DNA of 28,334 nucleotides from a virus. The stretch spans positions 1-28,334 of IMG/VR virus record IMGVR_UViG_3300031673_006486; one strand, written 5' to 3'. The position numbers were made by a program, and so were the translations under genes. The notes under the pieces were generated by a model that saw only the letters and a program-made list of their open reading frames with translations, did not search any database and was not told the origin of the DNA. Every line of letters begins with the position of its first letter. Within the stretch, counting starts at the first letter, position 1. This document shows positions 1,487 through 28,334 of this stretch, piece by piece.

Positions 1487-2197
1487 ATGTCTGAAACACG
1501 ATTAGAAGTAGTAGCAGAACCTGTTGCCACGCAGTTGAAACAAATAGTTAATATCCGTGCCTTTACTCAAGACCAGCGGATTGCTTTTAGCAACAGGATT
1601 GACGCGGTTGAACGCGGTGACTCCTCTCTCTCTCTATCTCATGTGAAAAATCTTGAGGTATGGAGAGACCGTTTTGCAGTTATGGAGGCGTACGCAAACG
1701 CTGACATTAAAAGAATTACAGAAGATATGGAGATAGTGTCACGCATGACAAAAGTCGTCGGAATCGGCCCGATACTATCCGCTCAGCTTGTGGCGCAGAT
1801 TGACATAACAAAAGCAGAAACGGTGTCTGCTTTGTGGCGCTACTGTGGATATGGCGTTACAGAGGAAGGCAATGCCGAGCGCAGAACCAAAGGCGAGCGC
1901 ATTCATTATAATCCGATTGTTAAAACATTATGCTGGAACATTGCAGTATCATTTTTGCGTAAAAGTAGCCCATATCGTGTTTTGTATGATAGTGCAAAAG
2001 AAAAGTACACCAGAGAGAAACCGGACTGGACACCGATGCACGTTCATAACGCCTCCCTGCGTATTATGATGAAGCGTTTCCTGTCTCATTTCTGGGTAGT
2101 CTACAGAGAGATTGAGAATCTTCCCGTAAGAGTCCCTTATGTCCACGAGAAACTCGGACATACTACAATGGATAGCCCTGCGGATTATGGTTGGTAA
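1487..2197 (+). CDS. IS110-family Tnp_20-like protein lacking the RuvC domain
   Basis: This 236-residue protein matches the C-terminal half of IS110/IS116/IS902 transposases: a helical lead-in (about 52-87), a helix-hairpin-helix core VVGIGPILSAQLVAQI (90-105), then a segment ending in helical stretches with the family pattern (NPIVKTLCWNIA, SPYRVLYDSAKEKY, NASLRIMMKRFLSHFWVVYRE). Full IS110 transposases also carry an N-terminal DEDD RuvC-like domain of about 150 residues; only about 50 unrelated residues precede the helical lead-in here. The Ser-Gly site that carries the nucleophilic serine in active members reads TEEGNAERR, without serine. I infer a DNA- or nucleic-acid-binding protein, not an active transposase. 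AAAAGGAG precedes the ATG. It lies directly upstream of a non-coding repeat array that may be its target. Confidence 0.75.
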   Translation: MSETRLEVVAEPVATQLKQIVNIRAFTQDQRIAFSNRIDAVERGDSSLSLSHVKNLEVWRDRFAVMEAYANADIKRITEDMEIVSRMTKVVGIGPILSAQLVAQIDITKAETVSALWRYCGYGVTEEGNAERRTKGERIHYNPIVKTLCWNIAVSFLRKSSPYRVLYDSAKEKYTREKPDWTPMHVHNASLRIMMKRFLSHFWVVYREIENLPVRVPYVHEKLGHTTMDSPADYGW

Positions 2198-17821: not shown

Positions 17822-19336
17822 TTAGTCGCTTCCTACTGCGATGAAACCATCTGCGCCATCGTCCGCCAAACCAACCAACATAACAAAATCTTGGTCTTCT
17901 TGGCAGGTTGCGATTGCAGAAATCTCATCACTCAGCGGGATAACATTTGTATCTCTTGCGGCGATAATGAAGCTGTATCCACCGTCAGTAGAGATGTACA
18001 AGCGTCCGTGGGACGCAACTGTTGCGGCAACGTACATTACGCTATCGCTGGACATTTCGATTGAGGTAAGATTAGTCGGGGCAGTTCCAGGCAGAGGCTT
18101 TTCTGTCCATGTTAGACCACCATCAAGCGTGTACCACAGGTCTCCATTGTCGTCACCGACAAACCACTCTTTCTCATTTTTCACCCACACGGCATTGAGA
18201 TTTACACCAAGACCGACAGGGAATGTGTCTGTAGGAGAAACTAAGTCGCCCTCTATCGTGAGAACAATTCCATCCTGTCCTACTGCAACTCCAAACTCTG
18301 TCGAGATTGCATGTACAGCATTAAGGTTAGAGGTTGTAGACTCGCCAGCATCAATTACTTCGACGCCAGTAGTAGGCTCAGTCATAATGTACACATAACC
18401 AAGGTCTCCTACGATGTAAGCCTTTCCTCCAACAGACCAAATATCATTTGGTTCGCCACCAGCTACAAAGCCAGTAACCACTGCCGCAAACGCGGGGTCA
18501 ACTCCTGCTTTGATTTCTGACTCAAGAGCCACAAAAGCAGAGCCGTCTGCATTTCCAACCACAACTATATAGCTCCCAACCTTAGCGATTCCGCTTGGGT
18601 CGTTAGCTACATTCATACCGTCAATATCGTGAGCCGCCCAGTTCTGTCCTTTATCAAAAGTAAAGATAACATCAGCGGGTGTTCCTGGCGAGCCGCCAGC
18701 AGCACTTGATATTGCGTAGAAGGTAGAGCATCCGTCAGACTCATCGTCGCATTCACCACACGACACTTGGTCAGGCCCAATCACATCTAAAAGCTGATTG
18801 GTCACAACAGCAGGAGTTCTAATCCCAAAAACGAGAGGAACGAACTCGTACATTCTTGCGGCGGAAAGCTCACCAGTTTCATCTGCCTTACCTTGTTCCC
18901 CAGGCTCAAGAGCACCAATATCTTCGGTTGCAAAACTATTCAGGTCTACATCCTCGAAAATAATTGATTTTTGGAAAGTGTTATAGATTGAAGCATCCTC
19001 GCACTCGCCAATATGAATTTGGACATCAAAGGCACAGCCCTTGTTTCCAAGTTCAAGCAATCTGCTCTTTACAAATGCGGCATAACGACCTACCAGAGAG
19101 GTTGTTGGTCTCTCTTCTCCGTCCCTATACTTGCCAGCTTCGATAAACTTTCCATAACGATTAGGGTCAGGAATATAAATCGAGTTTGTAGAGCCGTATC
19201 CTTTATTCAGACCGCCAATTTTCATGTGAGACATGAACTCAGGCATGTGGTCAGGGCGCGCTCTGCCTTCAATTAGCCAGACGCGTGTAAAGGATGAAAC
19301 AAGAGGCTTTTGGCTTTTTCCTACTCCAGTATTCAT
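17822..19336 (-). CDS. Tail tube protein fused to a BNR/Ycf48-like beta-propeller
   Basis: The 504-residue protein sits where the major tail tube gene is expected, just before the chaperones. Residues 1-190 look like the tube part (FTRVWLIEGRARPDH, SRLLELGNKGCAFDVQIHIG, TEDIGALEPG). A CGECDDESDGC cysteine patch (193-203) follows, then about 300 residues of propeller-type repeats with Asp-box motifs TFDKGQNW (226-233), TLDGGLTW (403-410) and STDGGYSF (449-456), as in Ycf48 and BNR sialidase-like propellers. The tail would then be studded with propellers on the outside, possibly for glycan or surface contact. GGAGG precedes the ATG. Confidence 0.8.
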   Translation of the reverse strand: MNTGVGKSQKPLVSSFTRVWLIEGRARPDHMPEFMSHMKIGGLNKGYGSTNSIYIPDPNRYGKFIEAGKYRDGEERPTTSLVGRYAAFVKSRLLELGNKGCAFDVQIHIGECEDASIYNTFQKSIIFEDVDLNSFATEDIGALEPGEQGKADETGELSAARMYEFVPLVFGIRTPAVVTNQLLDVIGPDQVSCGECDDESDGCSTFYAISSAAGGSPGTPADVIFTFDKGQNWAAHDIDGMNVANDPSGIAKVGSYIVVVGNADGSAFVALESEIKAGVDPAFAAVVTGFVAGGEPNDIWSVGGKAYIVGDLGYVYIMTEPTTGVEVIDAGESTTSNLNAVHAISTEFGVAVGQDGIVLTIEGDLVSPTDTFPVGLGVNLNAVWVKNEKEWFVGDDNGDLWYTLDGGLTWTEKPLPGTAPTNLTSIEMSSDSVMYVAATVASHGRLYISTDGGYSFIIAARDTNVIPLSDEISAIATCQEDQDFVMLVGLADDGADGFIAVGSD

Positions 19337-19340
19337 TTTT

Positions 19341-19640
19341 TTAACCTCCAGTGTTCTTTAGTTGCGCCTGTTTTATCTTGTATAAATGTATCAGACGCGT
19401 TTGCAATACCGATAGGATGCTGTTCGACAAATTCTTCATCGCTTTGGCATCCTTAATTGATATTATATCACGCTTCACAAGTGTATTGTGAAGCTCTCTT
19501 TTTATCTGCTCCCAATCGAGAGCGTCAAGGTCTGGAGGGTCGTCTGGAATACCCATGTGCGCTTGGTCGTCAGACATATCGTCTCTAACAAGCATTCTAT
19601 GAAGGTATCCGTCTTTATCTTCCGTAACAACTGTTCTCAT
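19341..19640 (-). CDS. Small conserved phage protein, unknown function
   Basis: The 99-residue protein begins MRTVVTEDKDGYLHRMLVRDDMSDDQA, then IPDDPPDLDALDWEQIKRELHN and an amphipathic helix near the end. I believe this pattern recurs in phage head-tail modules but cannot name a function. It is encoded between the adaptor-like protein and the tail tube protein, with a TAATG overlap on the upstream side and a five-base gap before the tail tube start, so a role in head-tail joining or tail completion is the likely context. Confidence 0.7.
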   Translation of the reverse strand: MRTVVTEDKDGYLHRMLVRDDMSDDQAHMGIPDDPPDLDALDWEQIKRELHNTLVKRDIISIKDAKAMKNLSNSILSVLQTRLIHLYKIKQAQLKNTGG

Positions 19641-20878
19641 TATGCCACACCTACCCGATAGTGTCTATCCATTTGTTTTATCATTCTCCAAACAGCTATC
19701 TCTCCAATTCTTGTTCCAAGAGGACAGCTTAGCGCATCTGGCCCTAAGAAGAACGTCGAGCCTTCGCTCTGTTCAGCCCCGTCTCTTCTCATGCTATCTA
19801 CAAAAGCAGTTATGTTGTTATTGCCTCTAAACGTAGCATCCATTCTGGCTGTGGCAAGCCATGCAATAGCTCTTTTTATTGTAGAGTTCATAGGAGATAT
19901 ATCTAAGTCGTTCATATATCTTTCTGAGCGCAAGCCGGACTGATACCACAATTGTACTCCGTCTGGCAAAGTGCTTTTAGAGAAACACTGTTTATCCCAA
20001 AGCTCCGTGTCGGCATTGTACGCCGCTGGCACTGGAATTACTATTCCGTTATCGTAGTCCGCAATTCGAACATATGCGTCTTGAAGAACAACTGCTCCAA
20101 GGGAGGACTCAAAACTGCCGCTACTCCATATGAACCTGCCGGAAGATACTGTCGTATCAGCAGAAATCTCGTATATGTCCAGTGTTGCAACGTAGTTAGC
20201 GGCATCATCTGCGCTTATTGTTATTGGCTCTCCACCAGGAAGAACCTCGTACAGCTCTCTGAGAAACAATAGCCAGCTAGACATAACAATAGTTACAGAG
20301 CCGCCACTAATGGTTACGGACTTCAAAGGTCTGACCTCATCAATAGGGTCTCCTCCGCTTCCTGCAAAATACACCTTAATGCTTTTCGGGTCTGTTACTG
20401 TAGTCACTGCTGTAATTGTAGCTGTCTCTTCGTATCCGTCTCCGTCTTCATCGGAGTATACAACAGCTACATTTTCGATAAGCGTCGTTTTGCGTTTTCC
20501 CATCACGATAAGTTTTTTGTGCTCCGTCTGAACAGACTTATAGTCCCCTTTGATGCTTCTTGTAATATATGGATTTTCAACGGGCAAATCCTCTGGATAC
20601 TTTACTGTTTCAAAGGTAGTCCACGTTGGGGCTGGATAATACCCAAGGAGCTGAGATATAGCCTCCTCTGCTTCATGAAGGAGCATAGACAGTTTATAGT
20701 GACTCATTTGATTAGCGGCTTGCCAGTCGTATCTGAACCACAACGGTTGCTTATCTGCTTCAAATCCATAAAGGTTTTCATTTGCGCTTGCCGCAGAGTT
20801 AAAATTCAACGGATTGAGACCCATAATTTCTGCGTACTCATCCAAAGACAGGAGTGTCTGAATATCATTTGTTGCCAT
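19640..20878 (-). CDS. Head-tail adaptor/connector-like protein
   Basis: I use the ATG at 20878 (AGGA nine bases upstream) instead of the TTG at 20896. The 412-residue product starts with a pattern seen in head-tail connector proteins: LSLDEYAEIMGLNPLNF, then a W-x-RYDWQ segment and HEAEEAISQLLGYYPAPTW, followed by a long strand-rich insert and a C-terminal GTRIGEIAVWRMIKQMDRHYRVG. It is longer than typical gp6-type adaptors (100-200 residues), so it may combine adaptor and completion roles. It overlaps the DUF1360 gene by 14 bases and the next gene start by one base (TAATG). Confidence 0.6.
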   Translation of the reverse strand: MATNDIQTLLSLDEYAEIMGLNPLNFNSAASANENLYGFEADKQPLWFRYDWQAANQMSHYKLSMLLHEAEEAISQLLGYYPAPTWTTFETVKYPEDLPVENPYITRSIKGDYKSVQTEHKKLIVMGKRKTTLIENVAVVYSDEDGDGYEETATITAVTTVTDPKSIKVYFAGSGGDPIDEVRPLKSVTISGGSVTIVMSSWLLFLRELYEVLPGGEPITISADDAANYVATLDIYEISADTTVSSGRFIWSSGSFESSLGAVVLQDAYVRIADYDNGIVIPVPAAYNADTELWDKQCFSKSTLPDGVQLWYQSGLRSERYMNDLDISPMNSTIKRAIAWLATARMDATFRGNNNITAFVDSMRRDGAEQSEGSTFFLGPDALSCPLGTRIGEIAVWRMIKQMDRHYRVGVA

Positions 20879-21170
20879 AGTAGATAATCCTATCAATGAT
20901 TATAGCTATCGCTCCAACCGCTAATGAACGGGTGAAGGAGAGAGATGCGTCAAAAAGCAGGCATATTGCTATAGCTACCCAGAAGCTAGTACACCACATA
21001 CAGGTTAGCATTTCAGCCAAAACATTACTGCCTACTTTCTGGCTATACTCATTATATGTTATTCCGATTTTCCTGCGCATCTTTGCAAAAAAATCGAAAG
21101 GGCCGTCCTCTTCTACAAGAAGGCTAGATATTCGCCATGTCGCAAGTCCGAGCGTAAGCAACTCAAGCAT
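20865..21170 (-). CDS. DUF1360-family membrane protein
   Basis: The 101-residue protein has the DUF1360 pattern LGLATWRISSLLVEEDGPFDFFAKMRRKIG, then LAEMLTCMWCTSFWVA with a CxxC, and hydrophobic segments at about 60-75 and 80-95. Members occur in bacilli and in many tailed phages, often among structural genes; no activity is known. It would sit in the host membrane. Its ATG overlaps the stop codon of the large glycosyltransferase (TAATG), and it ends inside the adaptor gene. It may help in envelope interaction or lysis timing, but that is a guess. Confidence 0.8.
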   Translation of the reverse strand: MLELLTLGLATWRISSLLVEEDGPFDFFAKMRRKIGITYNEYSQKVGSNVLAEMLTCMWCTSFWVAIAICLLFDASLSFTRSLAVGAIAIIIDRIIYYGNK

Positions 21171-24166
21171 TACATACCTTGGACTGCTTCAAGAATCATC
21201 TCTGCTCTTGAGTCTCCGACCCCTTTGTATTCTTTTAGACCTTCAACTCCGAGGGCAATAATGTCCTCTTTGGTCTCAATACCATTAGCCGCCATTTCCT
21301 TAGCTATGGTAGATGTAATTCCTGGCACAGCGTCTGGCTTGAAGACTTCGGATATTAGAGGAACGGGGGCTTTTGTTTCCTGTGTTTGTATATTGACTTT
21401 CGGCTCGTTGACACTTTTCTGTACCGGACTGAAAATATGTGGCTGAGCGGCCTGGTCTTCTCGTAAAATAAGGAACACGTCCCCGCCTCTTCTATATCCG
21501 TAATTCGCACCTGTGGCAGCGCCAGTTACTCTATGATTGCCTATGTTGCCCCACATATATTTGACAAGGACGGTTTGAGAATCTTCTATTGCGGCGCTTG
21601 TAACTCTTTGTGGATTTGAGAAATCCCTTACTGCTATCTGAGCACTTCTTGCCCTTGCTCCTGGGCATTTTGTACAGCCTGCCATTTTGACTCCTTTTAG
21701 TTTCTCCTGAGAGTATTGTAACATTTTTTTAGCAACTTTTATACCATCGTCTGTGCTGAAATCAGCAAGCACACGTCTTGTACTGGTCTCTCTATTATAC
21801 ATCACAAGGCGCTCTGTTAGCCTGATATAGCATTTTCCAGTACGCGCCATTGACCAATGATACACCACATCCTCAAAAGTTTCCATGCTTTCGTCAAATC
21901 CACCAATCTCGTAGTGCCATACTTTAGGAATAAGGCATGTCACAAGACACCAGTGGTAAAGGTCTTTTCTCTCGTAGTCTGGCATTCTCTGCGCCCTCTC
22001 GCAGTTATAGTCAGAACCTTTTCCTCTAATGTAAGCCACACTGATTGATGGGTAAAACTCTATAATTTCATCCTCTTTGAAACTTTTTATGCTTTCTGTA
22101 TCCGCGCTTACTTTGTGAATGTAGTCTGTATATACAATCCCCTCGTCCTGCCCCCACACATCAAAACACGCCTCAAGGAACTCTTTGTGTATTTCATCGT
22201 CTGCATCAAGAAAAACAACGAATGAAGACGAGGACGCAGAGGCATCCACGCCCATATTTCTTGCCGCGCCAGCTCCTTTTTTCCCTCCAGTAGCCAGTAT
22301 CTTTGCGTGAGTATATCCCTTTAGATATGAAAGGTCTGGTATCTCCTCCATATCAAAAACAAGAATAAGCTCCCATCTGTGGTATGTTTGACCCTCCACG
22401 CTATCAATCGCTCGCCTCGCAATCGTCTCGTGCCCAGGGCCTATAGGAATAATCACAGATACAATAGGTTCGTCATACTGCATTACGTTATGAGCCACCC
22501 CGTTCTCTGGTGTAGCCGGAGACGCAAATGGATGTTTTCCTGTGGCAGAGTATGCCTTGTTTTTGAGCCAGTGAGGTTCAATCACGTTATGGTGTATTTT
22601 CTTAGCTCCGCTTACAAGACCAGTGCCAATAGAGTATATAAACAGAGGGCTTTTGGTTACAAGCTCTGCTCTGTATCCGGTGGCACAATACCTTGTCCAG
22701 AACTCGGCATCCTCAGCTCCAGCGCCTCTTGGGGCGTAGGCTTGGTTGAACCCTCCCACGCGCTCCCATATGTCTCTTCTGAACACACAGCAGGTAGGCA
22801 CTTGGTTCATTCCTCTGTCATTATTTTTTCCTCTTAGCTTTATCTGTGCGTCGAAGTTGAAAACGTCAGGCCAGTCGCTTACTCTTTCTTTGCCATCCGC
22901 GCTAATCGCTAATAGTTTTGTATACGCTATGCCAAGGGATGGGTCGTCAAATGCGTCCGTGCAAACCTCTAGAAAATGCTCCCTGATCTTGTCGTCTGCA
23001 TCTAGGCAGCAAACCAGCTTTGTTTTAGCCTCTTGGATACCACGGTCTCTAGCTGTTGCCACGCCGCCATTTTCTTTCCTAATGTATCGAACAGTATCGT
23101 GCTCTGCCGCGAGTCTCTCTCCAACTTCCTGAGTGTTGTCAGTAGAACCATCGTCTACAATGATTATCTCCCGTGGCTGTTTTGTTTGGCGTATAGCGCT
23201 GACCACCGCTTTTTCAAGAACCGTTGCATAATTGTATACGGGGATAACAACAGTTACATCGTTTTTCTCATCTTTGATGTCAAGCGCCTTTTGGTACGAG
23301 TCCGCCACAAGCCTTGCCGCCTCATCCCATGACCACTTTTGTACATCTACTGCGGCGTTAGCGCCAAGGGTATCTCTGTATTTGAGGCAGTATTGAAGCC
23401 CCTTAGCCAAATCGTCTATGTCGTTTGGTCTAGCAAGGTATCCCGTGACACCATGCTTTACAAGGTCGCTATTTCCGCCATAGTCATAGCCGAGGACGGG
23501 AACTCCAGCCGCCATTGCCTCCAGTACACCTATACAGAAGGTCTCTTTTGTGCTTGAAAGATAGACACCAGCGCGCTGAATGACCTCTCTCATAAGATCG
23601 TGGCGCATTGTTCCTGTCACTACTGTATTTGGAAGCGGTTCTTTCATGGGGGGCATAAATGTAGTTACAAAGTCTAAGCCCTCAAACATAGACGACAACT
23701 CGTACATTGGCGTAGGGTCACAAACATCGTAATTCCTGTTTTTGTTCCACAGTACATACCCCTCGTTAGGTTCTTTGTGCGTCCATTTTTTCCAATCAAT
23801 ACCGTGCGGAACTACAACGGGGTCTATTCTCATGTCGCGTCTAAACACTTGCGCTACCCACTCAGACGGAACGGTAATCTGCTTCGCGGCTCGCACAGCG
23901 TTTACAATATTTTTATTTGCTTGATGTTGCCATTTTTGGGATAGGTAGTCAGCAGTCCAATATAATCCGTGGATGTGTGCAACGTCAACATTAGAACCTG
24001 TGCCTCCGGCATGAGACGCAATAAGGTCGTATGACTCTTCATCTTTATCTACAAGCTCTATGTCGTATTTGGGTAGGTATTTGAAATAAGCCTCTACAAC
24101 TCTCTTTACTCCACTTTCGTGTTTAGACTGAAAGTCGCCAAGGTGCGGTCTCATTAAAACTTTCAT
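21170..24166 (-). CDS. Triple glycosyltransferase (GT4-GT2-GT2) with virion-type C-terminus
   Basis: The 998-residue protein has three enzyme domains. Residues 1-290 are a GT4 (GT-B) unit with E208 to E216 in ETFCIGVLE, followed by GVPVLGYDYGGN. Residues 303-545 are a GT2 (GT-A) unit with VVIPVYNYA, IIIVDDGSTDN, DADD at 389-392 and ED at 485-486. Residues 568-800 are a second GT2 with DADD at 654-657; its usual nucleotide-site VDDGS is replaced by VFDMEE. The last 170 residues hold CTKC (831-834), a beta segment (YMWGNIGNHRVTGAATGANYGYRR) and a helix-hairpin-helix end (LKEYKGVGDSRAEMIL). These enzymes would build a glycan of at least two or three sugars; target and sugars are unknown. Confidence 0.9.
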   Translation of the reverse strand: MKVLMRPHLGDFQSKHESGVKRVVEAYFKYLPKYDIELVDKDEESYDLIASHAGGTGSNVDVAHIHGLYWTADYLSQKWQHQANKNIVNAVRAAKQITVPSEWVAQVFRRDMRIDPVVVPHGIDWKKWTHKEPNEGYVLWNKNRNYDVCDPTPMYELSSMFEGLDFVTTFMPPMKEPLPNTVVTGTMRHDLMREVIQRAGVYLSSTKETFCIGVLEAMAAGVPVLGYDYGGNSDLVKHGVTGYLARPNDIDDLAKGLQYCLKYRDTLGANAAVDVQKWSWDEAARLVADSYQKALDIKDEKNDVTVVIPVYNYATVLEKAVVSAIRQTKQPREIIIVDDGSTDNTQEVGERLAAEHDTVRYIRKENGGVATARDRGIQEAKTKLVCCLDADDKIREHFLEVCTDAFDDPSLGIAYTKLLAISADGKERVSDWPDVFNFDAQIKLRGKNNDRGMNQVPTCCVFRRDIWERVGGFNQAYAPRGAGAEDAEFWTRYCATGYRAELVTKSPLFIYSIGTGLVSGAKKIHHNVIEPHWLKNKAYSATGKHPFASPATPENGVAHNVMQYDEPIVSVIIPIGPGHETIARRAIDSVEGQTYHRWELILVFDMEEIPDLSYLKGYTHAKILATGGKKGAGAARNMGVDASASSSSFVVFLDADDEIHKEFLEACFDVWGQDEGIVYTDYIHKVSADTESIKSFKEDEIIEFYPSISVAYIRGKGSDYNCERAQRMPDYERKDLYHWCLVTCLIPKVWHYEIGGFDESMETFEDVVYHWSMARTGKCYIRLTERLVMYNRETSTRRVLADFSTDDGIKVAKKMLQYSQEKLKGVKMAGCTKCPGARARSAQIAVRDFSNPQRVTSAAIEDSQTVLVKYMWGNIGNHRVTGAATGANYGYRRGGDVFLILREDQAAQPHIFSPVQKSVNEPKVNIQTQETKAPVPLISEVFKPDAVPGITSTIAKEMAANGIETKEDIIALGVEGLKEYKGVGDSRAEMILEAVQGM

Positions 24167-24190
24167 CGGTTGGTCTCCGTGTTTTTGATA

Positions 24191-24529
24191 TTATGTTAGT
24201 AGCCCCAGAAGAAACTCCCTAAAAGCCTCACTTGTCACCGCGACGTAGGCTACCAGAACAATCGCCGCGATGACGGAAGCAAAAAACGATAGGGTCTTAG
24301 CTGTCTTGTGTTTCAACAGCCAGATAACAGACGGGTTTTCCTCGATATATTTTTTTATTTCCTTTATATCATCGCGTTGCTCAGTCATTGTCACCTTGCT
24401 CATCTCCTGCGATTTTAAGTTTTTAGTTTGCGACTCCAGCAAAAGCCTAACAGCCGCTTCGACCGTAATGTCACCTTTGTCTAAAAACCTATCAATTTTA
24501 CTTATCAAGCCGCCATTTTCATCAGTCAT
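24191..24529 (-). CDS. Small membrane protein with cytoplasmic coiled coil
   Basis: The 112-residue protein has a charged helical N-terminal part with coiled-coil potential (about 35-70, including KVTMTEQRDDIKEIKKYIEEN), one membrane segment at about 79-99 and a short hydrophobic end, with no signal peptide. I do not recognise the family. It is encoded between sulfotransferase and large glycosyltransferase with two- and 24-base gaps, so it could anchor a glycosylation complex at the membrane or be a holin-like or spanin-like accessory. Confidence 0.6.
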   Translation of the reverse strand: MTDENGGLISKIDRFLDKGDITVEAAVRLLLESQTKNLKSQEMSKVTMTEQRDDIKEIKKYIEENPSVIWLLKHKTAKTLSFFASVIAAIVLVAYVAVTSEAFREFLLGLLT

Positions 24530-24531
24530 GA

Positions 24532-25251
24532 TTATTCCTTTAGTTTAGTCCACCAGTCTTCATCATTTTCGTAACCAAGTGACATTAAACAATGCCACAA
24601 GTGCTCGTGGATAATTCTACCATGTTCCTTCGTTATATGGTTTTTCCAATCACCCACAACGCCTTTTCTAAGCAACTTACTCTGGATTGACTCGCCATAA
24701 GGAAGCGTGCTCCCGCTCCCCTTCACCCGTTTTTTCATGGATGCAAAAGACTGTCTTTCGAAAACCTCATCGAGCGGCTTGACTGCATCAACCTTAAGAA
24801 ATTTTAAGATTCGATCAAGCTCCTTTTCTTTTAGGAGGCTTAGCTTCTCATATGTTGTTACTACGTTTTTAACTGGCTTGTTTGCATTTTTCCATTTTTT
24901 TATGTATCTTTCATAACCGATAAGTACGTTTGGTCTTTTGTCTGTGTCGAGGTTAGCCATCTTCCTGATGTACTCATCTACGCTTTCGAACCCCCAATAG
25001 TGAGCCACTGAAACAATTAGGTCGCGTGGGTCTCTTAGAATAAAAACCACGCGTTCTGGAAGAGAGCTAATAGAGTTATAAAGATGATGTCTTTGGCGAA
25101 TAATGTACTTTCCTTTTCCGTCGTCATTATCGGCTAAAGATGGTTGTGGCTTTCCGCTTTTGACGGGGCTATCAAGAGCATCTCCAAGCAATCTTGATAG
25201 CCACGTATTCCCAGATTTAGGATAACCAACAACAAAAATCTCGTCACTCAT
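24532..25251 (-). CDS. PAPS-dependent sulfotransferase
   Basis: The 239-residue protein is a clear Sulfotransfer_1 enzyme. Near its start VVGYPKSGNTWL (7-18) is the 5'-phosphosulfate loop. RQRHHLY (52-58) provides the catalytic histidine (H56 most likely). ILRDPRDLIVS (71-81) is the 3'-phosphate binding segment with R73 and S81, and RKGVVGDWKN (195-204) is the family end motif. It would move sulfate from PAPS to a hydroxyl, here most likely of a sugar because it lies between two methyltransferases and the glycosyltransferases. PAPS must come from the host. It overlaps the upstream methyltransferase by eight bases. Sulfotransferases are rare in phages. Confidence 0.95.
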   Translation of the reverse strand: MSDEIFVVGYPKSGNTWLSRLLGDALDSPVKSGKPQPSLADNDDGKGKYIIRQRHHLYNSISSLPERVVFILRDPRDLIVSVAHYWGFESVDEYIRKMANLDTDKRPNVLIGYERYIKKWKNANKPVKNVVTTYEKLSLLKEKELDRILKFLKVDAVKPLDEVFERQSFASMKKRVKGSGSTLPYGESIQSKLLRKGVVGDWKNHITKEHGRIIHEHLWHCLMSLGYENDEDWWTKLKE

Positions 25252-25816
25252 TTATGATGAACCCTATCACCGAGTCCGCTTTTACAATGATCTCGTAAAA
25301 CGGATACAGAAGTGTGTCTACGGCAACAGTTACTCCAGGCCAGACATCTTTGTTTGGCCCTTTCTCGCTCAGGTAGTCGTCTACCAGAATCAAGCCTCCT
25401 TTCTTAACGTGCTTTATCCATATAGCAATATCTCCAGAAGCACCCTCTAGGCTGTGGTCTCCATCAATGAAAATCATATCAAGTTTACCGTTTGCCCAGT
25501 GTCTACCAACGTCTCGGCTATCACCATGTATTTGTCTGTGCCTATGTTTATACTTTATTCCAGATTTTTCAAGAGCGATTATCTCGTTCTCTAAACCGCC
25601 ATAGGGATTTGCTTTTAGCCTGATGTCAACAGTGGTAAGTCTAAGGTCTTCTCTTGTCTCTAGTATAGCGAGTCCGCTTGTACCAGAGCCTGCTCCAATG
25701 TTTACAACATGAGAGTCTGGAGGCAGATAAACAACTGCCTCTTTTATTGCAGACACTTCTGCTCTTGTGAGGTATCCAAAACTTTCTGCTAGTTGGTACG
25801 CATCTTCTTTTATCAT
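25244..25816 (-). CDS. SAM methyltransferase, Methyltransf_24-like
   Basis: I use the ATG at 25816, part of an ATGA overlap with the upstream stop codon, over a GTG at 25825. The 190-residue protein is a class I SAM methyltransferase: motif I VVNIGAGSGTSG (37-48), acidic D64 after the second strand, FIDGDHSLEG (116-125) and GGLILVDDY (140-148). This set, with a metal-binding-like DH and DD, is typical of Methyltransf_24 sugar or small-molecule O-methyltransferases. It would cap a glycan hydroxyl, which fits its glycosyltransferase and sulfotransferase neighbours. Confidence 0.88.
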   Translation of the reverse strand: MIKEDAYQLAESFGYLTRAEVSAIKEAVVYLPPDSHVVNIGAGSGTSGLAILETREDLRLTTVDIRLKANPYGGLENEIIALEKSGIKYKHRHRQIHGDSRDVGRHWANGKLDMIFIDGDHSLEGASGDIAIWIKHVKKGGLILVDDYLSEKGPNKDVWPGVTVAVDTLLYPFYEIIVKADSVIGFIINE

Positions 25817-26376
25817 GGTACACACATCCAGATGTCTCTAAACTTGTCTCTTTCTGCGATATACGTGCTTCCAATAAGCTCAATATTAGAGAATCCAATA
25901 TCACGAGATAGCCAAAACTGCATATCTCTTCTATTTTTTACGAAAGACAGCCCAGGCCCGTCTCCGTCGTATTGGCACTCCACGATTGAGGCGAAATACA
26001 TTTCAGACATCCATCGCAGGAAGTCGGTAGGCGCTTCTAAATAGGGAAGAACGCTAAAGCAAAAACCTATCTCTCCTCCCCATGTTTTTAGTTTCTTTTC
26101 TATGTCGTCTTCTATTACATCAACAGTAGCTACAACTTTATCTACGCCTTTTCCATTCGGTATTCTATAGACTCCAGCGTATTTTTTTGCTTTGTCTATA
26201 TCCGAGTCTACCCCCAGAACATTCGACGCACCCGCCATCAAGGCGCGCCAGAGAAAATCACCTCCTCCGCATCCAAGGTCTACCACAGATGCTTTATGAA
26301 AGCATATGTGCTGGCTTATTTGAAACCACATCTGATAAGCCCTTTTATTGTATCCTTCCGTAATGGTATTTTTCAT
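25813..26376 (-). CDS. Class I SAM methyltransferase
   Basis: The start is ATG at 26376 (AAGGA seven bases upstream), which shares one base with the upstream stop codon (TAATG); a GTG at 26397 lies before the ribosome site. The 187-residue protein has motif I VVDLGCGGGDF (31-41) and GVDSDID (55-61) and continues as a Rossmann fold, with no target-recognition domain for DNA. It is most like small-molecule or glycan methyltransferases. It is the third gene in a five-gene overlapping set and lies directly before a second methyltransferase, so two different positions of one glycan may be methylated. Confidence 0.85.
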   Translation of the reverse strand: MKNTITEGYNKRAYQMWFQISQHICFHKASVVDLGCGGGDFLWRALMAGASNVLGVDSDIDKAKKYAGVYRIPNGKGVDKVVATVDVIEDDIEKKLKTWGGEIGFCFSVLPYLEAPTDFLRWMSEMYFASIVECQYDGDGPGLSFVKNRRDMQFWLSRDIGFSNIELIGSTYIAERDKFRDIWMCVP

Positions 26377-26870
26377 TATGTTTTCCTTTTCATGCACAAC
26401 TTTTCAAATGTTTTATCGAGCCAATATTTATCTCCTTCTGGTCTTTTATCTGGACGCGGGTCGTTGATTAATCTTGATTCTGCAAAATCTATTAGAAACG
26501 GTTTGTTATGTACTACTATAATTGATTGCTCTGTAATATCTCCGTGCCTTATTTCAGCATCTTTTAGAGCCTGTAGTATCATTTCTTTATGAATCATAAA
26601 AGCCCTGCAATCCGTAACCTCCATTGAAAAACCAAGGTTTTGAGTAGCAATCGTATATTTATCATATCTAAAACATGACGGAACGTACCCGCTGTTGTAC
26701 ATTTTTTTAAGGCAGTATATCTCGTTCTCTATCATAAATGGAATAGAGCGCTTATAGATTGTATCGTTGGCTCTATAGACTACACTTATTCCATTATTTG
26801 AGATAAGTGTTGATGTTGGTAGCTTCGTCATATCTTCTGTTACAAGAGACATCCAGTGCGCATCACTCAT
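26376..26870 (-). CDS. Mini kinase-like protein (Bud32/RIO/WaaP-type)
   Basis: The 164-residue protein keeps a reduced protein-kinase-like pattern: a putative nucleotide lysine at K40 (TIYKRS), a glutamate in the next helix (E48 or E50), the catalytic loop HGDITEQS (109-116) with D111, and LIDFAES (126-132) with metal-binding D128. The usual asparagine after the catalytic loop is S116. Small kinases with HGD loops include Bud32 and lipopolysaccharide kinases such as WaaP. In this cassette it may phosphorylate a sugar or a protein, or be an inactive scaffold. It overlaps its neighbours by ATGA and TAATG. Confidence 0.65.
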   Translation of the reverse strand: MSDAHWMSLVTEDMTKLPTSTLISNNGISVVYRANDTIYKRSIPFMIENEIYCLKKMYNSGYVPSCFRYDKYTIATQNLGFSMEVTDCRAFMIHKEMILQALKDAEIRHGDITEQSIIVVHNKPFLIDFAESRLINDPRPDKRPEGDKYWLDKTFEKLCMKRKT

Positions 26871-27577
26871 TGTTTTATTTTTCCCTCGAATTTTCTAGGT
26901 ATCCAGTTAGCCTCTAAAATCGTTTTTGTGTGCTCCCGTGGTATCCCCTTTATATTTACTTCGTTGCTGTCTGATTTTAGTCCGTTTGCGTATCTTACGA
27001 GTTGTTGTTTAGTGCCAATAACTCGCATGTCGCTCTCATTTACAACTGTTGTCCCGCTAAGCTCTACGTCCCAAGGAGACCACCCTCGTTGCAGGACTTT
27101 TAACAAAAGTTTTGTGTCCCATATCCCCGCTTGCAGGCTCATTTGATACTGACTTCCTACTGCTTCAACAAGGTCGTAGTGACCGTAGTAGCCAACGTCT
27201 TTAGCTCCTCCAGCAAACATTCTGTCTGAGGTCAGGTCAACTCTAAGTATTTTCTTATTCTCAACCATAAACTCGTGCATCGTCTTTATTCCAGAATGGT
27301 CTACTGTTCTTACAAGCCAGTAGTCGTCTAGAAGCCATGCAAAATGACTCTCGTTTATCTCTCTTTGTATAAATTCAATGACTGCATCTGAGTATCTGCT
27401 TTTCCCCCACGGAACACCAGCGCTTCTATAAATAAAATTTGGTGGAAGTTTGAAGGGCGGAAGGGACTCCCCAAGAACATAGACCGGCTGACTGGCGCTC
27501 CAGAACTTATTGAAAAGGTATGAAAAAACTCTTAGCGTCCAAAGGTGTGCATCACACGTAGTAACAAAAACTTTCAT
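26867..27577 (-). CDS. Glycosyltransferase-like protein with LLDDYWL motif
   Basis: The 236-residue protein starts with a strand and loop VFVTTCDAHLW, then FAWLLDDYWLVR (79-90) with an acidic DD like the DxD motif of GT-A enzymes, then LRVDLTSDR and QAGIWDTKLLLKVLQRGWSPWDVE, a pattern I associate with a phage and marine-bacterial glycosyltransferase-like family. The sugar donor and target cannot be read. It is the first gene of the decoration cassette, with AAGGA before the ATG, and lies about 45 bases downstream of a T-run terminator, so its expression may depend on read-through. Confidence 0.65.
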   Translation of the reverse strand: MKVFVTTCDAHLWTLRVFSYLFNKFWSASQPVYVLGESLPPFKLPPNFIYRSAGVPWGKSRYSDAVIEFIQREINESHFAWLLDDYWLVRTVDHSGIKTMHEFMVENKKILRVDLTSDRMFAGGAKDVGYYGHYDLVEAVGSQYQMSLQAGIWDTKLLLKVLQRGWSPWDVELSGTTVVNESDMRVIGTKQQLVRYANGLKSDSNEVNIKGIPREHTKTILEANWIPRKFEGKIKQ

Positions 27578-27621: not shown

Positions 27622-27653
27622 AAAAAAAGCAGAGCGACAATAGCCGCTCTGCT
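27622..27653 (-). terminator. Intrinsic terminator before the decoration cassette
   Basis: Read on the minus strand, AGCAGAGCG pairs with CGCTCTGCT (9 bp, 27653-27645 with 27636-27628) across an 8-base loop and runs into seven T in a row (27628-27622). It lies only about 65 bases after the expected start of transcription from the promoter at 27722-27750, and 45 bases before the first cassette gene. Confidence 0.9.
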
Positions 27654-27721: not shown

Positions 27722-27750
27722 ATACTAGCATATTACGGAAATTATGTCAA
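27722..27750 (-). promoter_or_regulatory. Near-consensus promoter with extended -10
   Basis: On the minus strand the sequence has a perfect -35 TTGACA (27750-27745), a 17-base spacer, then TGC and TAGTAT (27727-27722), five of six -10 bases with an extended -10. It is the best promoter in the window, placed just after the capsid gene terminator. Confidence 0.9.
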
Positions 27751-27762
27751 GTTAACAAAAGT

Positions 27763-27788
27763 GGCAGGGAGTTTTGAGACTCCCTGCC
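27763..27788 (-). terminator. Bidirectional terminator after the capsid gene
   Basis: GGCAGGGAGT (27763-27772) and ACTCCCTGCC (27779-27788) form a perfect 10-bp stem with a 6-base loop, flanked by TTTT on the plus side and ACTTTTGTT on the minus side. It would end much of the capsid transcript and insulate the promoter that starts 13 bases later. Confidence 0.85.
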
Positions 27789-27853: not shown

Positions 27854-28334
27854 TTACGCCCAGACTGCATTTGCAGTTCCGACGCTTCTAGGAGTGCTTA
27901 CGCCGCCATCCTCGAAGTAGTCACTGTCGGGGTACGGGCTTCTCAGGTGCTGCAACGGTTCGTACATAATGTTTTGGATTTTCCCAGCAAGATGCGGGGT
28001 TCTCAAAACGATACGCTGTTCACTTCTGAGGTGCATCACGTAGCACCATTTGGTTTGGGAGACAGCCCATGAGTACACACCATTGTCAGACCAGAAGTCT
28101 TCTTTTCCTCTGAGCAGGCTGACATCGGAGTCCCAAGCGCTGTAGTTCAAATACTGGCGATAGGTTACGGGGAATCCGCCTTGGATAGTGATAGGCACAA
28201 AGTAGATGCTTGATGCAAACTGTCCAGGGATTAGATTTCCGTCGTTGACACTATTCGCTTCGTAAATGCCATCATCGGTTACAACAGGGTATGTTCTACC
28301 GTTGATGTCAAGAGTCATACTGTTTCTCATTCTG
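27854..28334 (-). CDS. Probable major capsid protein, C-terminal part
   Basis: The frame is open to the right edge and the first ATG (28330) has no ribosome site, so this is the C-terminal part of a gene that continues outside. The visible 159 residues look like the end of an HK97-type major capsid protein of phages: MTLDINGRTYPVVTDDG, WAVSQTKWCYVMHLRSEQRIVLRTPHLAGKIQNI, HLRSPYPDSDYFEDGGV. Its place in front of head-tail connector genes and the strong terminator after it also fit, since capsid genes are highly transcribed. Only the end is visible, so the fold call rests on the pattern and the gene order. Confidence 0.65.
   Translation of the reverse strand, partial: RMRNSMTLDINGRTYPVVTDDGIYEANSVNDGNLIPGQFASSIYFVPITIQGGFPVTYRQYLNYSAWDSDVSLLRGKEDFWSDNGVYSWAVSQTKWCYVMHLRSEQRIVLRTPHLAGKIQNIMYEPLQHLRSPYPDSDYFEDGGVSTPRSVGTANAVWA

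Follow-up and report, generated by a model that had tools for sequence, protein, structure and literature searches.

The stretch of DNA analysed here (the window) comprises 28,334 nt of the IMG/VR virus record IMGVR_UViG_3300031673_006486. Our analyses have identified on its minus strand a cassette of genes which, together with the genes flanking it, reads in the 5' to 3' direction as follows: a capsid gene that is probably of the HK97 type, gene A, a kinase-like gene, two methyltransferase genes (MT1 and MT2), a PAPS sulfotransferase gene, a gene for a one-helix membrane protein, a triple glycosyltransferase (GT) gene of the arrangement GT4-GT2-GT2, a DUF1360 gene and a presumed connector gene (Table 1). 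The ORF calls and family searches agree with an earlier note on this DNA as regards the presence, strand and coordinates of the cassette genes, and its description of their starts as mostly overlapping also holds: successive genes overlap by 4, 22, 13 and 8 nt, are then separated by gaps of 2 and 24 nt, and overlap again at the GT/DUF1360 and DUF1360/connector junctions. The placement of the cassette between the capsid and connector genes is likewise borne out for the set of genes that the note had named, although the interval also holds DUF1360, which lies between the GT and the connector.

Table 1. Coordinates of the genes and other features of the locus in the window.
Feature	Position	Strand	Evidence or remark
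Major capsid protein, C-terminal part	27854..28330	-	50% identity to 477-aa ORF in L003
Terminator-like hairpin 3' of capsid gene	27763..27788	-	Counterpart in most relatives by eye
Sigma-70-like promoter TTGACA-17-TAGTAT, extended -10, before cassette	27722..27750	-	Same place in L003, L010
Second terminator, 11-bp stem, T7, between promoter and first cassette gene	27628..27653	-	
Gene A, glycosyltransferase, GT-A fold, LDDYW motif	26867..27577	-	AlphaFold2 model and structural matches
Small RIO/Bud32-like kinase domain	26376..26870	-	PF01163, arch_bud32
SAM methyltransferase 1 (MT1)	25813..26397	-	PF08003 E 8e-8
SAM methyltransferase 2 (MT2; Methyltransf_24, O-methyltransferase-like)	25244..25825	-	PF13578 E 2e-16
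PAPS sulfotransferase	24532..25251	-	PF00685 E 5e-23; PDB SULT matches
Small protein, one predicted transmembrane helix	24191..24529	-	Family matches weak only
Triple glycosyltransferase GT4-GT2-GT2; C-terminal CxxC, YRF-type domain, HHH	21170..24166	-	PF00535, PF00534
Predicted internally started product, 171 aa, MAGCTKCPG..., CxxC + YRF-type domain + HHH_5	21170..21685	-	AAAAGGAGTCAAAATG; Shine-Dalgarno excess; stand-alone gene in relatives
DUF1360 membrane protein between GT and connector	20865..21170	-	PF07098 E 6e-7
p418, first conserved gene past cassette, presumed head-tail adaptor/connector	19640..20896	-	Gene order only

The capsid ORF of the window encodes the C-terminal 158 aa only, because the contig ends inside the gene. 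Its full-length homologue in L003 was modelled at low confidence (pLDDT 41), and all 50 structural matches listed for this model are HK97-fold capsids or encapsulins (VIA Z up to 7.9); the best match of the same weak model among viral models (Foldseek) is a Bacillus phage major capsid protein (E 0.026). In relatives, the gene order is terminase-portal-protease-capsid, the capsid gene being located downstream of a terminase/portal module (PF03237, PF04860). For p418, the family searches found no database match, and its role as the head-tail adaptor or connector is presumed from gene order. Neither the capsid nor the connector has relatives in an annotated collection of 50,697 phage records, and hence the phages carrying this locus look uncultured. 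Profiles of the capsid, the connector and gene A returned nothing meaningful from PDB sequences, and no close relatives were found when the sulfotransferase alone or the connector alone was used as the query.

The counterparts of the cassette promoter in L003 and L010 show 11/12 matches each. The second terminator may possibly serve as an attenuator or mark the end of an RNA of about 90 nt, and a comparison of this leader region with Rfam gave a single match at chance level.

Enzymes of the cassette

The triple GT matches PF00535 over two stretches (E 1e-49) and PF00534 (E 4e-18). All three of its domains keep their predicted catalytic residues (viz. E208/E216; D389-D392 with E485-D486; D654-D657 with E765-D766), which are invariant across 8 homologues. 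A tblastn search of phages with the GT gave matches in 88 records that covered at most 37% of the query, and Mycobacterium is absent among the organisms named. The GT, gene A, the methyltransferases and the sulfotransferase of the window have no predicted transmembrane helices.

Gene A has no family match, and its AlphaFold2 model (pLDDT 89.8) has the fold of a GT-A glycosyltransferase, with VIA Z scores of 16.9 to B4GALNT1 and 14.6 to GnT-I. The kinase-like protein matches RIO1 (PF01163, E 6.5e-5, just over the Pfam cut-off) and arch_bud32 (E 2e-4) and retains Lys40, the HGD motif and Asp128; it has a predicted kinase-like fold, but its activity is doubtful because the metal-binding Asn that follows HGD is replaced (by Ser in the window and by Ala in L010), being missing in 2 of the 3 homologues aligned. 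Sulfotransferase homologues are present in the same interval in 8 loci, and all 8 match PF00685 and contain the 5'-PSB loop PxSG, the catalytic His55, the 3'-phosphate motif RDPRD and GxxGxW, with P11, S13, G14, H55, RDPRD, S81, G197, G200 and W202 invariant. In our literature search, virions did not appear as the target of any phage sulfotransferase, and one paper names phage GT and sulfotransferase genes solely as suspected modifiers of nucleotides or proteins (PMC10829341).

Recurrence of the locus in related phages

Relatives of the locus were identified by searching IMG/VR with the triple GT alone, without use of the capsid, which yielded 63 loci after duplicates were removed by hand. The first relatives had been obtained through the capsid, and the concern that the synteny was circular on this account is dismissed by the GT-only search. 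A capsid homologue is found on the same strand as the GT in 57 of the 57 contigs with a detectable capsid, located upstream in 56 and, in the remaining one (L063), upstream only if the contig is circular. For 47 of these contigs the capsid homologue is within the fetched flank (46 detected by script, plus L062) and in 9 it is further upstream; all 10 of the GT loci that lack a capsid within 8 kb carry one in another part of the contig, in the same orientation. Of the 52 informative loci, 51 have a connector homologue on the downstream side of the GT; DUF1360 is found in 46/63, and no gene other than the GT lies between capsid and connector in L037 and L058. This arrangement is beyond chance because it recurs in 63 loci, and the synteny in related phages that the earlier note had called for is thus present. 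The triple GT also occurs in 9/9 records of the capsid family, and among weaker matches to single GT2 domains (n = 17) a capsid-connector context is seen in L101 only. Across 31 loci, the divergence of the GT correlates with that of the capsid (Spearman 0.56) about as that of the capsid does with the connector (0.57).

The genes between the capsid and the GT are more variable. Homologues of gene A are found there in 28/63 loci and homologues of MT2 in 20/63, while the kinase-like gene is present in 8 loci, accompanied in 7 of them by MT1, whose homologues are confined to loci with the kinase-like gene. The accessory genes exchanged between loci encode GT-A enzymes, NAD-dependent epimerases/dehydratases, DegT aminotransferases, methyltransferases, kinase-like proteins and PF00685 sulfotransferases. 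Within this lineage the triple GT keeps its place between capsid and connector, and the accessory genes between capsid and GT are exchangeable. The expectation that the cassette would not turn up in unrelated, non-structural contexts holds for the triple GT, whereas gene A alone has relatives in sugar islands of other phages that lack these head genes (L013-L016).

The small C-terminal domain of the glycosyltransferase

The link between the GT and the structural genes, another claim of the earlier note, rests on the same-strand capsid described above, on the overlaps of the GT with the next genes in the window and on its fusion to a small head-region phage protein, which forms its C-terminus. 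The fusion is found in 53 loci and separate copies in 7, the small protein being a stand-alone head-region gene in L007, L008, L009, L075, L085 and others. Apart from its C-terminal helix-hairpin-helix (HHH_5, E 9e-8), the small domain is not known to PHROG or Pfam; the HHH itself occurs on some GT tails only and is absent from many GT homologues, which have other tails.

An internal ATG preceded by a Shine-Dalgarno sequence is observed at the start of the small domain in 31 of 37 loci, whereas synonymous resampling predicts 16.1 (sd 2.5), and no such excess is seen at 1,177 Met codons examined as controls. A mere by-product of the amino acids encoded before the Met is ruled out by the resampling and by these controls. 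The small domain is thus strongly indicated to derive from a small phage gene that was absorbed at the 3' end of the GT ORF and retains its own ribosome-binding site, which suggests that the one ORF would yield both the GT fusion and the free small protein.

Proposed function and comparison with known systems

The structural context that the earlier note had proposed for the cassette is strongly supported, whereas the virion glycan, its methylation and its sulfation are what we infer from that context. We consider it likely that the locus serves virion glycosylation and forms an integral part of the head operon. Swappable sugar enzymes occur together with a triple GT fusion that anchors them between capsid and connector, and these phages therefore probably coat their own particles with modified sugars. 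A cytoplasmic pathway would decorate the virion, probably its head, with a glycan presumed to be methylated and sulfated. Gene A and the three domains of the GT would draw on nucleotide sugars made by host or phage to build, in the cytoplasm, a short glycan on a protein of the particle, which may be the capsid protein itself, the small protein at the GT C-terminus or some other protein of the head. Through its fusion to the small domain, the GT would be recruited to heads under assembly. In the window phage, the sugars would then be O-methylated, and sulfated from PAPS, and the kinase-like protein, whose missing Asn counts against virion glycosylation, may act as a sugar kinase or have no catalytic role. 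That accessory genes are swapped around a constant GT would fit selection for varied coat chemistry, for evasion of recognition or for surface binding.

A more specific proposal, which we advance tentatively as somewhat short of likely, is that internal initiation within one ORF gives a GT tethered to the small head-region protein as well as the free protein, that the tether unites head assembly and glycan building, and that the exchangeable cassette sets whether the coat is methylated, aminated, sulfated or phosphorylated. If so, a phage particle would for the first time be found to bear a sulfated glycan, and coat chemistry in a large uncultured lineage would be set by a modular locus.

The locus may instead be a moron-like cassette that remodels the host polysaccharide to block other phages, with the late operon serving for expression only. 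In the window, L003 and L010 a strong promoter of the host type precedes the cassette, as would be expected of a moron, and this counts against a role on the virion, as does the inclusion in the cassette of a membrane protein without an assigned role; two membrane proteins are present in the interval (one small, one DUF1360), and like accessory sugar genes lie in the islands, lacking these head genes, of L013-L016. However, a pure moron is expected to move about and to be missing from many relatives, whereas the position of the GT is constant across very divergent phages and the GT is fused to a small phage protein. The window GTs are predicted to be soluble, and a homologue of the GtrA flippase (PF04138) was found in 0 of 40 records, which may be incomplete (control positive). 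This alternative, which the earlier note had offered, is weakened by these results, and we regard it as unlikely.

It is improbable that the locus acts not on the head but on another particle protein, chiefly the tail tube or major tail protein with a beta-propeller region (p504). Glycosylated tail tubes are known among mycobacteriophages (PMC12363180), and L003's phage has a second sulfotransferase at the end of its tail module, but what stays with the GT throughout is the capsid-connector interval and the small protein of the fusion rather than the tail genes. Still less probable is DNA hypermodification, in which the GTs with HHH tails would glycosylate a modified base in phage DNA, as phage GTs can do (cited in PMC12619734); the HHH on some GT C-termini could point to nucleic acid and counts against virion glycosylation, but many homologues lack it, the GT is linked to the capsid and not to replication genes, and in 40 records we found no homologue of thymidylate synthase or pyrimidine hydroxymethylase (PF00303, control positive). 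A search of the 40 records for the TET/JBP oxygenase (PF12851) gave 0 matches but had no positive control, and it carries no weight either way.

The significance of these results lies in a locus that is lineage-wide, situated in the head operon and exchangeable in its chemistry, including sulfation, and in evidence from the sequence that a nested gene joins a glycosyltransferase to a small protein of the head region. If the virion reading is true, the particles of uncultured phages bear diverse modified sugar coats that would affect adsorption, surface binding and recognition. The order capsid - triple GT - connector provides a simple genomic marker for finding such phages.

Among tailed phages, glycosylated virions are known in a few mycobacteriophages. 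The capsid and tail-tube glycosylation of these phages provides a precedent (PMC12363180, PMC12619734), and both sources cite Freeman et al. (2023) for Che8 gp110, Corndog gp38 and Myrna and describe, as here, phage-encoded glycosyltransferases whose proposed substrate is a capsid or tail protein. In contrast to those systems, the locus described here places a GT of three domains, with a small phage protein fused to it, between capsid and connector, and adds genes for sugar synthesis, methyltransferases and sulfotransferases. In Che8, a distance of 11 nt separates the capsid gene from the adaptor gene, and no GT gene intervenes; as the capsid of this phage is glycosylated, virion glycosylation does not require linkage to the capsid gene, which counts against the virion reading.

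The gtrABC serotype-conversion clusters are also phage-borne and include GT2 enzymes, and they work through a GtrA flippase and membrane GTs by way of a lipid carrier. Here, in contrast, no GtrA homologue was found in the 40 records, and the window GT and gene A, which lack a predicted transmembrane helix, do not look membrane-anchored as GtrB/GtrC are. In chlorovirus PBCV-1, the Vp54 glycan enzyme A064R is a soluble GT encoded by the virus that has several domains, one of them a predicted methyltransferase, and acts in building a capsid glycan, as described in part of PMC5408694; that virus is eukaryotic with an unrelated capsid, and the same part of the source names neither linkage to the capsid gene nor a sulfotransferase. 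Lastly, the phage sulfotransferases share with the cytosolic SULT family (PF00685) the conserved PAPS-binding and catalytic residues, and they differ from that family in being phage-encoded and located inside a head operon.

Position of the glycosyltransferase in related phages

In the window, a linear IMG/VR virus contig of 28.3 kb, the genes of the sugar cassette are separated by gaps of 2-24 nt or overlap by 4-22 nt. A search with the capsid C-terminus identified one relative, and a profile built from it retrieved eight viral contigs (including the relative's own, locus L003) and three MAG contigs. The order portal, protease, capsid, variable sugar genes, triple glycosyltransferase (GT), in some cases DUF1360, p418 (presumed from its position to be the connector) and p504 is kept in each sufficiently long relative; for L011, the first flank examined did not show the connector. 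A second search used the GT alone, so that capsid-first sampling could not make the synteny circular, and manual removal of same-contig and near-identical loci left 63 triple-GT loci. A capsid homologue is present in 57 of these, on the strand of the GT every time. Of the 52 informative loci, 51 have the connector downstream in the same orientation; the location between capsid and connector, for which the earlier note had proposed a check in related phages, recurs. The capsid lies inside the flank in 47 loci (46 by the first count plus L062, where ORF boundaries overlap) and elsewhere on the contig in 10, nine of them 8-22 kb upstream of the GT by coordinates; the placement in L063 fits only with a circular contig. 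In the six loci with no detected capsid, no more than 6 kb of contig precedes the GT.

The capsid-connector interval spans 2.7-13.0 kb (median 7.8 kb), with the GT as its sole gene in L037 and L058. Across 31 loci, divergence of the GT and of the connector correlates equally with that of the capsid (0.56 and 0.57), as expected for head genes inherited together. Among 17 weaker, single-GT2 matches in the same list, the capsid-GT-connector context occurs in L101 only, a more distant phage with a shorter GT.

Features of the window and of related loci
Feature	Location	Strand	Remarks
Helicase, DNA methyltransferase, transposase-like gene	window	plus	
Transposase-like protein (phrog_4285)	window 1487-2197	plus	Adjoins helicase
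p504, presumed major tail protein	window 17822-19336		C-terminal BNR/Ycf48-like beta-propeller region
Tail chaperone-like ORFs, tape measure, Dit, minor tail proteins	window	minus	After p418
One-helix membrane protein, 998-aa GT, DUF1360 membrane protein, p418	window	minus	After sulfotransferase
Predicted internally started product, 171 aa	window 21685-21170	minus	After AAAAGGAGTCAAA
Capsid gene end, gene A, kinase-like gene, two methyltransferases, sulfotransferase	window	minus	Starting at right edge
Kinase-like gene and MT1	window 25813-26870		Paired
Hairpin, promoter TTGACA-17-TAGTAT, second strong terminator, gene A	window	minus	3' of capsid gene
Strong promoter and leader of roughly 90 nt	window 27763-27577	minus	Ends in second intrinsic terminator, before gene A
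Fibre-like proteins	L007 13818-14714, 15831-16496		
Shorter GT	L101 6529-9859		
Second sulfotransferase	L020 1-821		Cut by end of contig G001

Composition of the cassette

The GT protein has the domain order GT4-GT2-GT2, and its domains are intact: the catalytic residues of all three (E208/E216; D389-A-D-D392 with E485-D486; D654-x-D-D657 with E765-D766) are invariant in eight homologues. The window sulfotransferase hits PF00685 (E 5e-23), and SULT enzymes of known structure are also among its matches. A family search with gene A gave no match; its predicted structure is a GT-A enzyme fold (pLDDT 89.8; Z 16.9 to B4GALNT1). The capsid gene is identified from 50% identity of its ORF to a full-length ORF, from gene order (it follows terminase and portal) and from a weak model for which all 50 structural matches listed are HK97-type shells.

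The capsid-to-GT genes are modular, and among the 63 loci they include homologues of gene A (28), methyltransferase MT2 (20), the kinase-like protein (8), MT1 (7, never without the kinase-like gene) and the sulfotransferase (8, sharing all PAPS-binding and catalytic residues), together with epimerases (19) and DegT aminotransferases (18). L024 has the enzyme set of the window in a different order. Other loci encode a polysaccharide-type dehydratase (PF02719), a GHMP kinase, a SIS isomerase and a CmcI/rhamnosyl O-methyltransferase-like protein slightly below the Pfam cut-off, all of it dedicated sugar chemistry. The kinase-like gene and MT1 are also paired in L004, L010, L024, L036, L045 and L077, although the metal-binding Asn of this RIO/Bud32-resembling protein is not conserved (Ser in the window).

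A distinct second sulfotransferase (PF00685; motifs FPKSGLHL and RDLRDVVIS) lies at the tail-module end of L003's phage. Two repeat-rich, fibre-like proteins with no family assigned lie amid the sugar genes of the L007 capsid-GT interval. In L014, L015 and L016, sugar islands from other phages of which some are large, homologues of gene A lie close to sulfotransferase-like ORFs; one such ORF, on L016's contig, matches PF00685.

A small domain and predicted internal start in the GT

Behind the third GT domain lie a Cys motif (M-x-C-x-x-C) and a small domain bearing a YRF/YGYR signature, to which close relatives add a helix-hairpin-helix. Fusion and fission are both represented: the small domain is fused to the GT in 53 loci, is a separate gene right behind it in L007, L008, L075 and L085, and is fused with two additional separate copies in L009 and L040. 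The GT tail is, on comparison of these loci, very probably an absorbed small gene.

A Shine-Dalgarno sequence of at least 4 matching bases precedes the Cys-motif Met at 30 of 37 sites (31 with slightly stricter site choice) and 11% of other Met codons, a difference for which Fisher P (9e-22) overstates independence owing to kinship among sequences. Synonymous resampling points to selection on this sequence: 31 of the 37 sites have it, where 16.1 (sd 2.5) would be expected and the highest of 2,000 resamplings reached 24. Requiring at least 5 bases leaves 18 sites, the expectation being 5.8 (sd 1.9); 1,177 control Met codons have no excess (122 observed, 131.9 expected). The residues ahead of the internal Met and the exact Shine-Dalgarno position both vary among loci.

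Proposed function and relation to known systems

The locus is best explained as a cytoplasmic pathway glycosylating a particle protein, on the basis of soluble GTs without lipid-carrier partners, the fixed capsid-connector position and the fusion to a small phage protein. A particle protein would be glycosylated in the cytoplasm by the soluble GTs, coat chemistry would be set by exchangeable enzymes, and in the window phage two methyltransferases and the PAPS sulfotransferase would act on the glycan; we infer the substrate, glycan structure, order of steps and benefit.

That the cassette instead changes the host surface, as a moron, is unlikely; its promoter counts in favour of this reading; against it, no GtrA homologue was detected in 40 records, where the positive control worked. 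Given this promoter, with even better ones at the same place in L003 and L010, the cassette is probably transcribable both alone and from the head operon. The promoter-then-terminator arrangement in the window tempers the point in favour of a moron, suggesting that the stretch separating capsid and cassette serves attenuation or yields a short RNA. DNA modification by the cassette is very improbable, the same 40 records having yielded no thymidylate-synthase homologue (positive control worked); a Tet/JBP search, run without a positive control, also gave no hit and carries no weight here.

Our literature search, incomplete in coverage, found no paper describing such a locus. Published reports describe glycosylation of the capsid and tail tube in mycobacteriophages (PMC12363180, PMC12619734) and, in chlorovirus PBCV-1, a protein that joins a GT with a predicted methyltransferase and serves the capsid glycan (PMC5408694). 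The present locus is proposed to work alike. It differs from both in its gene position (in mycobacteriophage Che8 the capsid-to-adaptor gap is 11 nt, against the kilobase-scale interval here), in having a triple GT fused to a small protein that has a predicted internal start, and in its putative sulfation.
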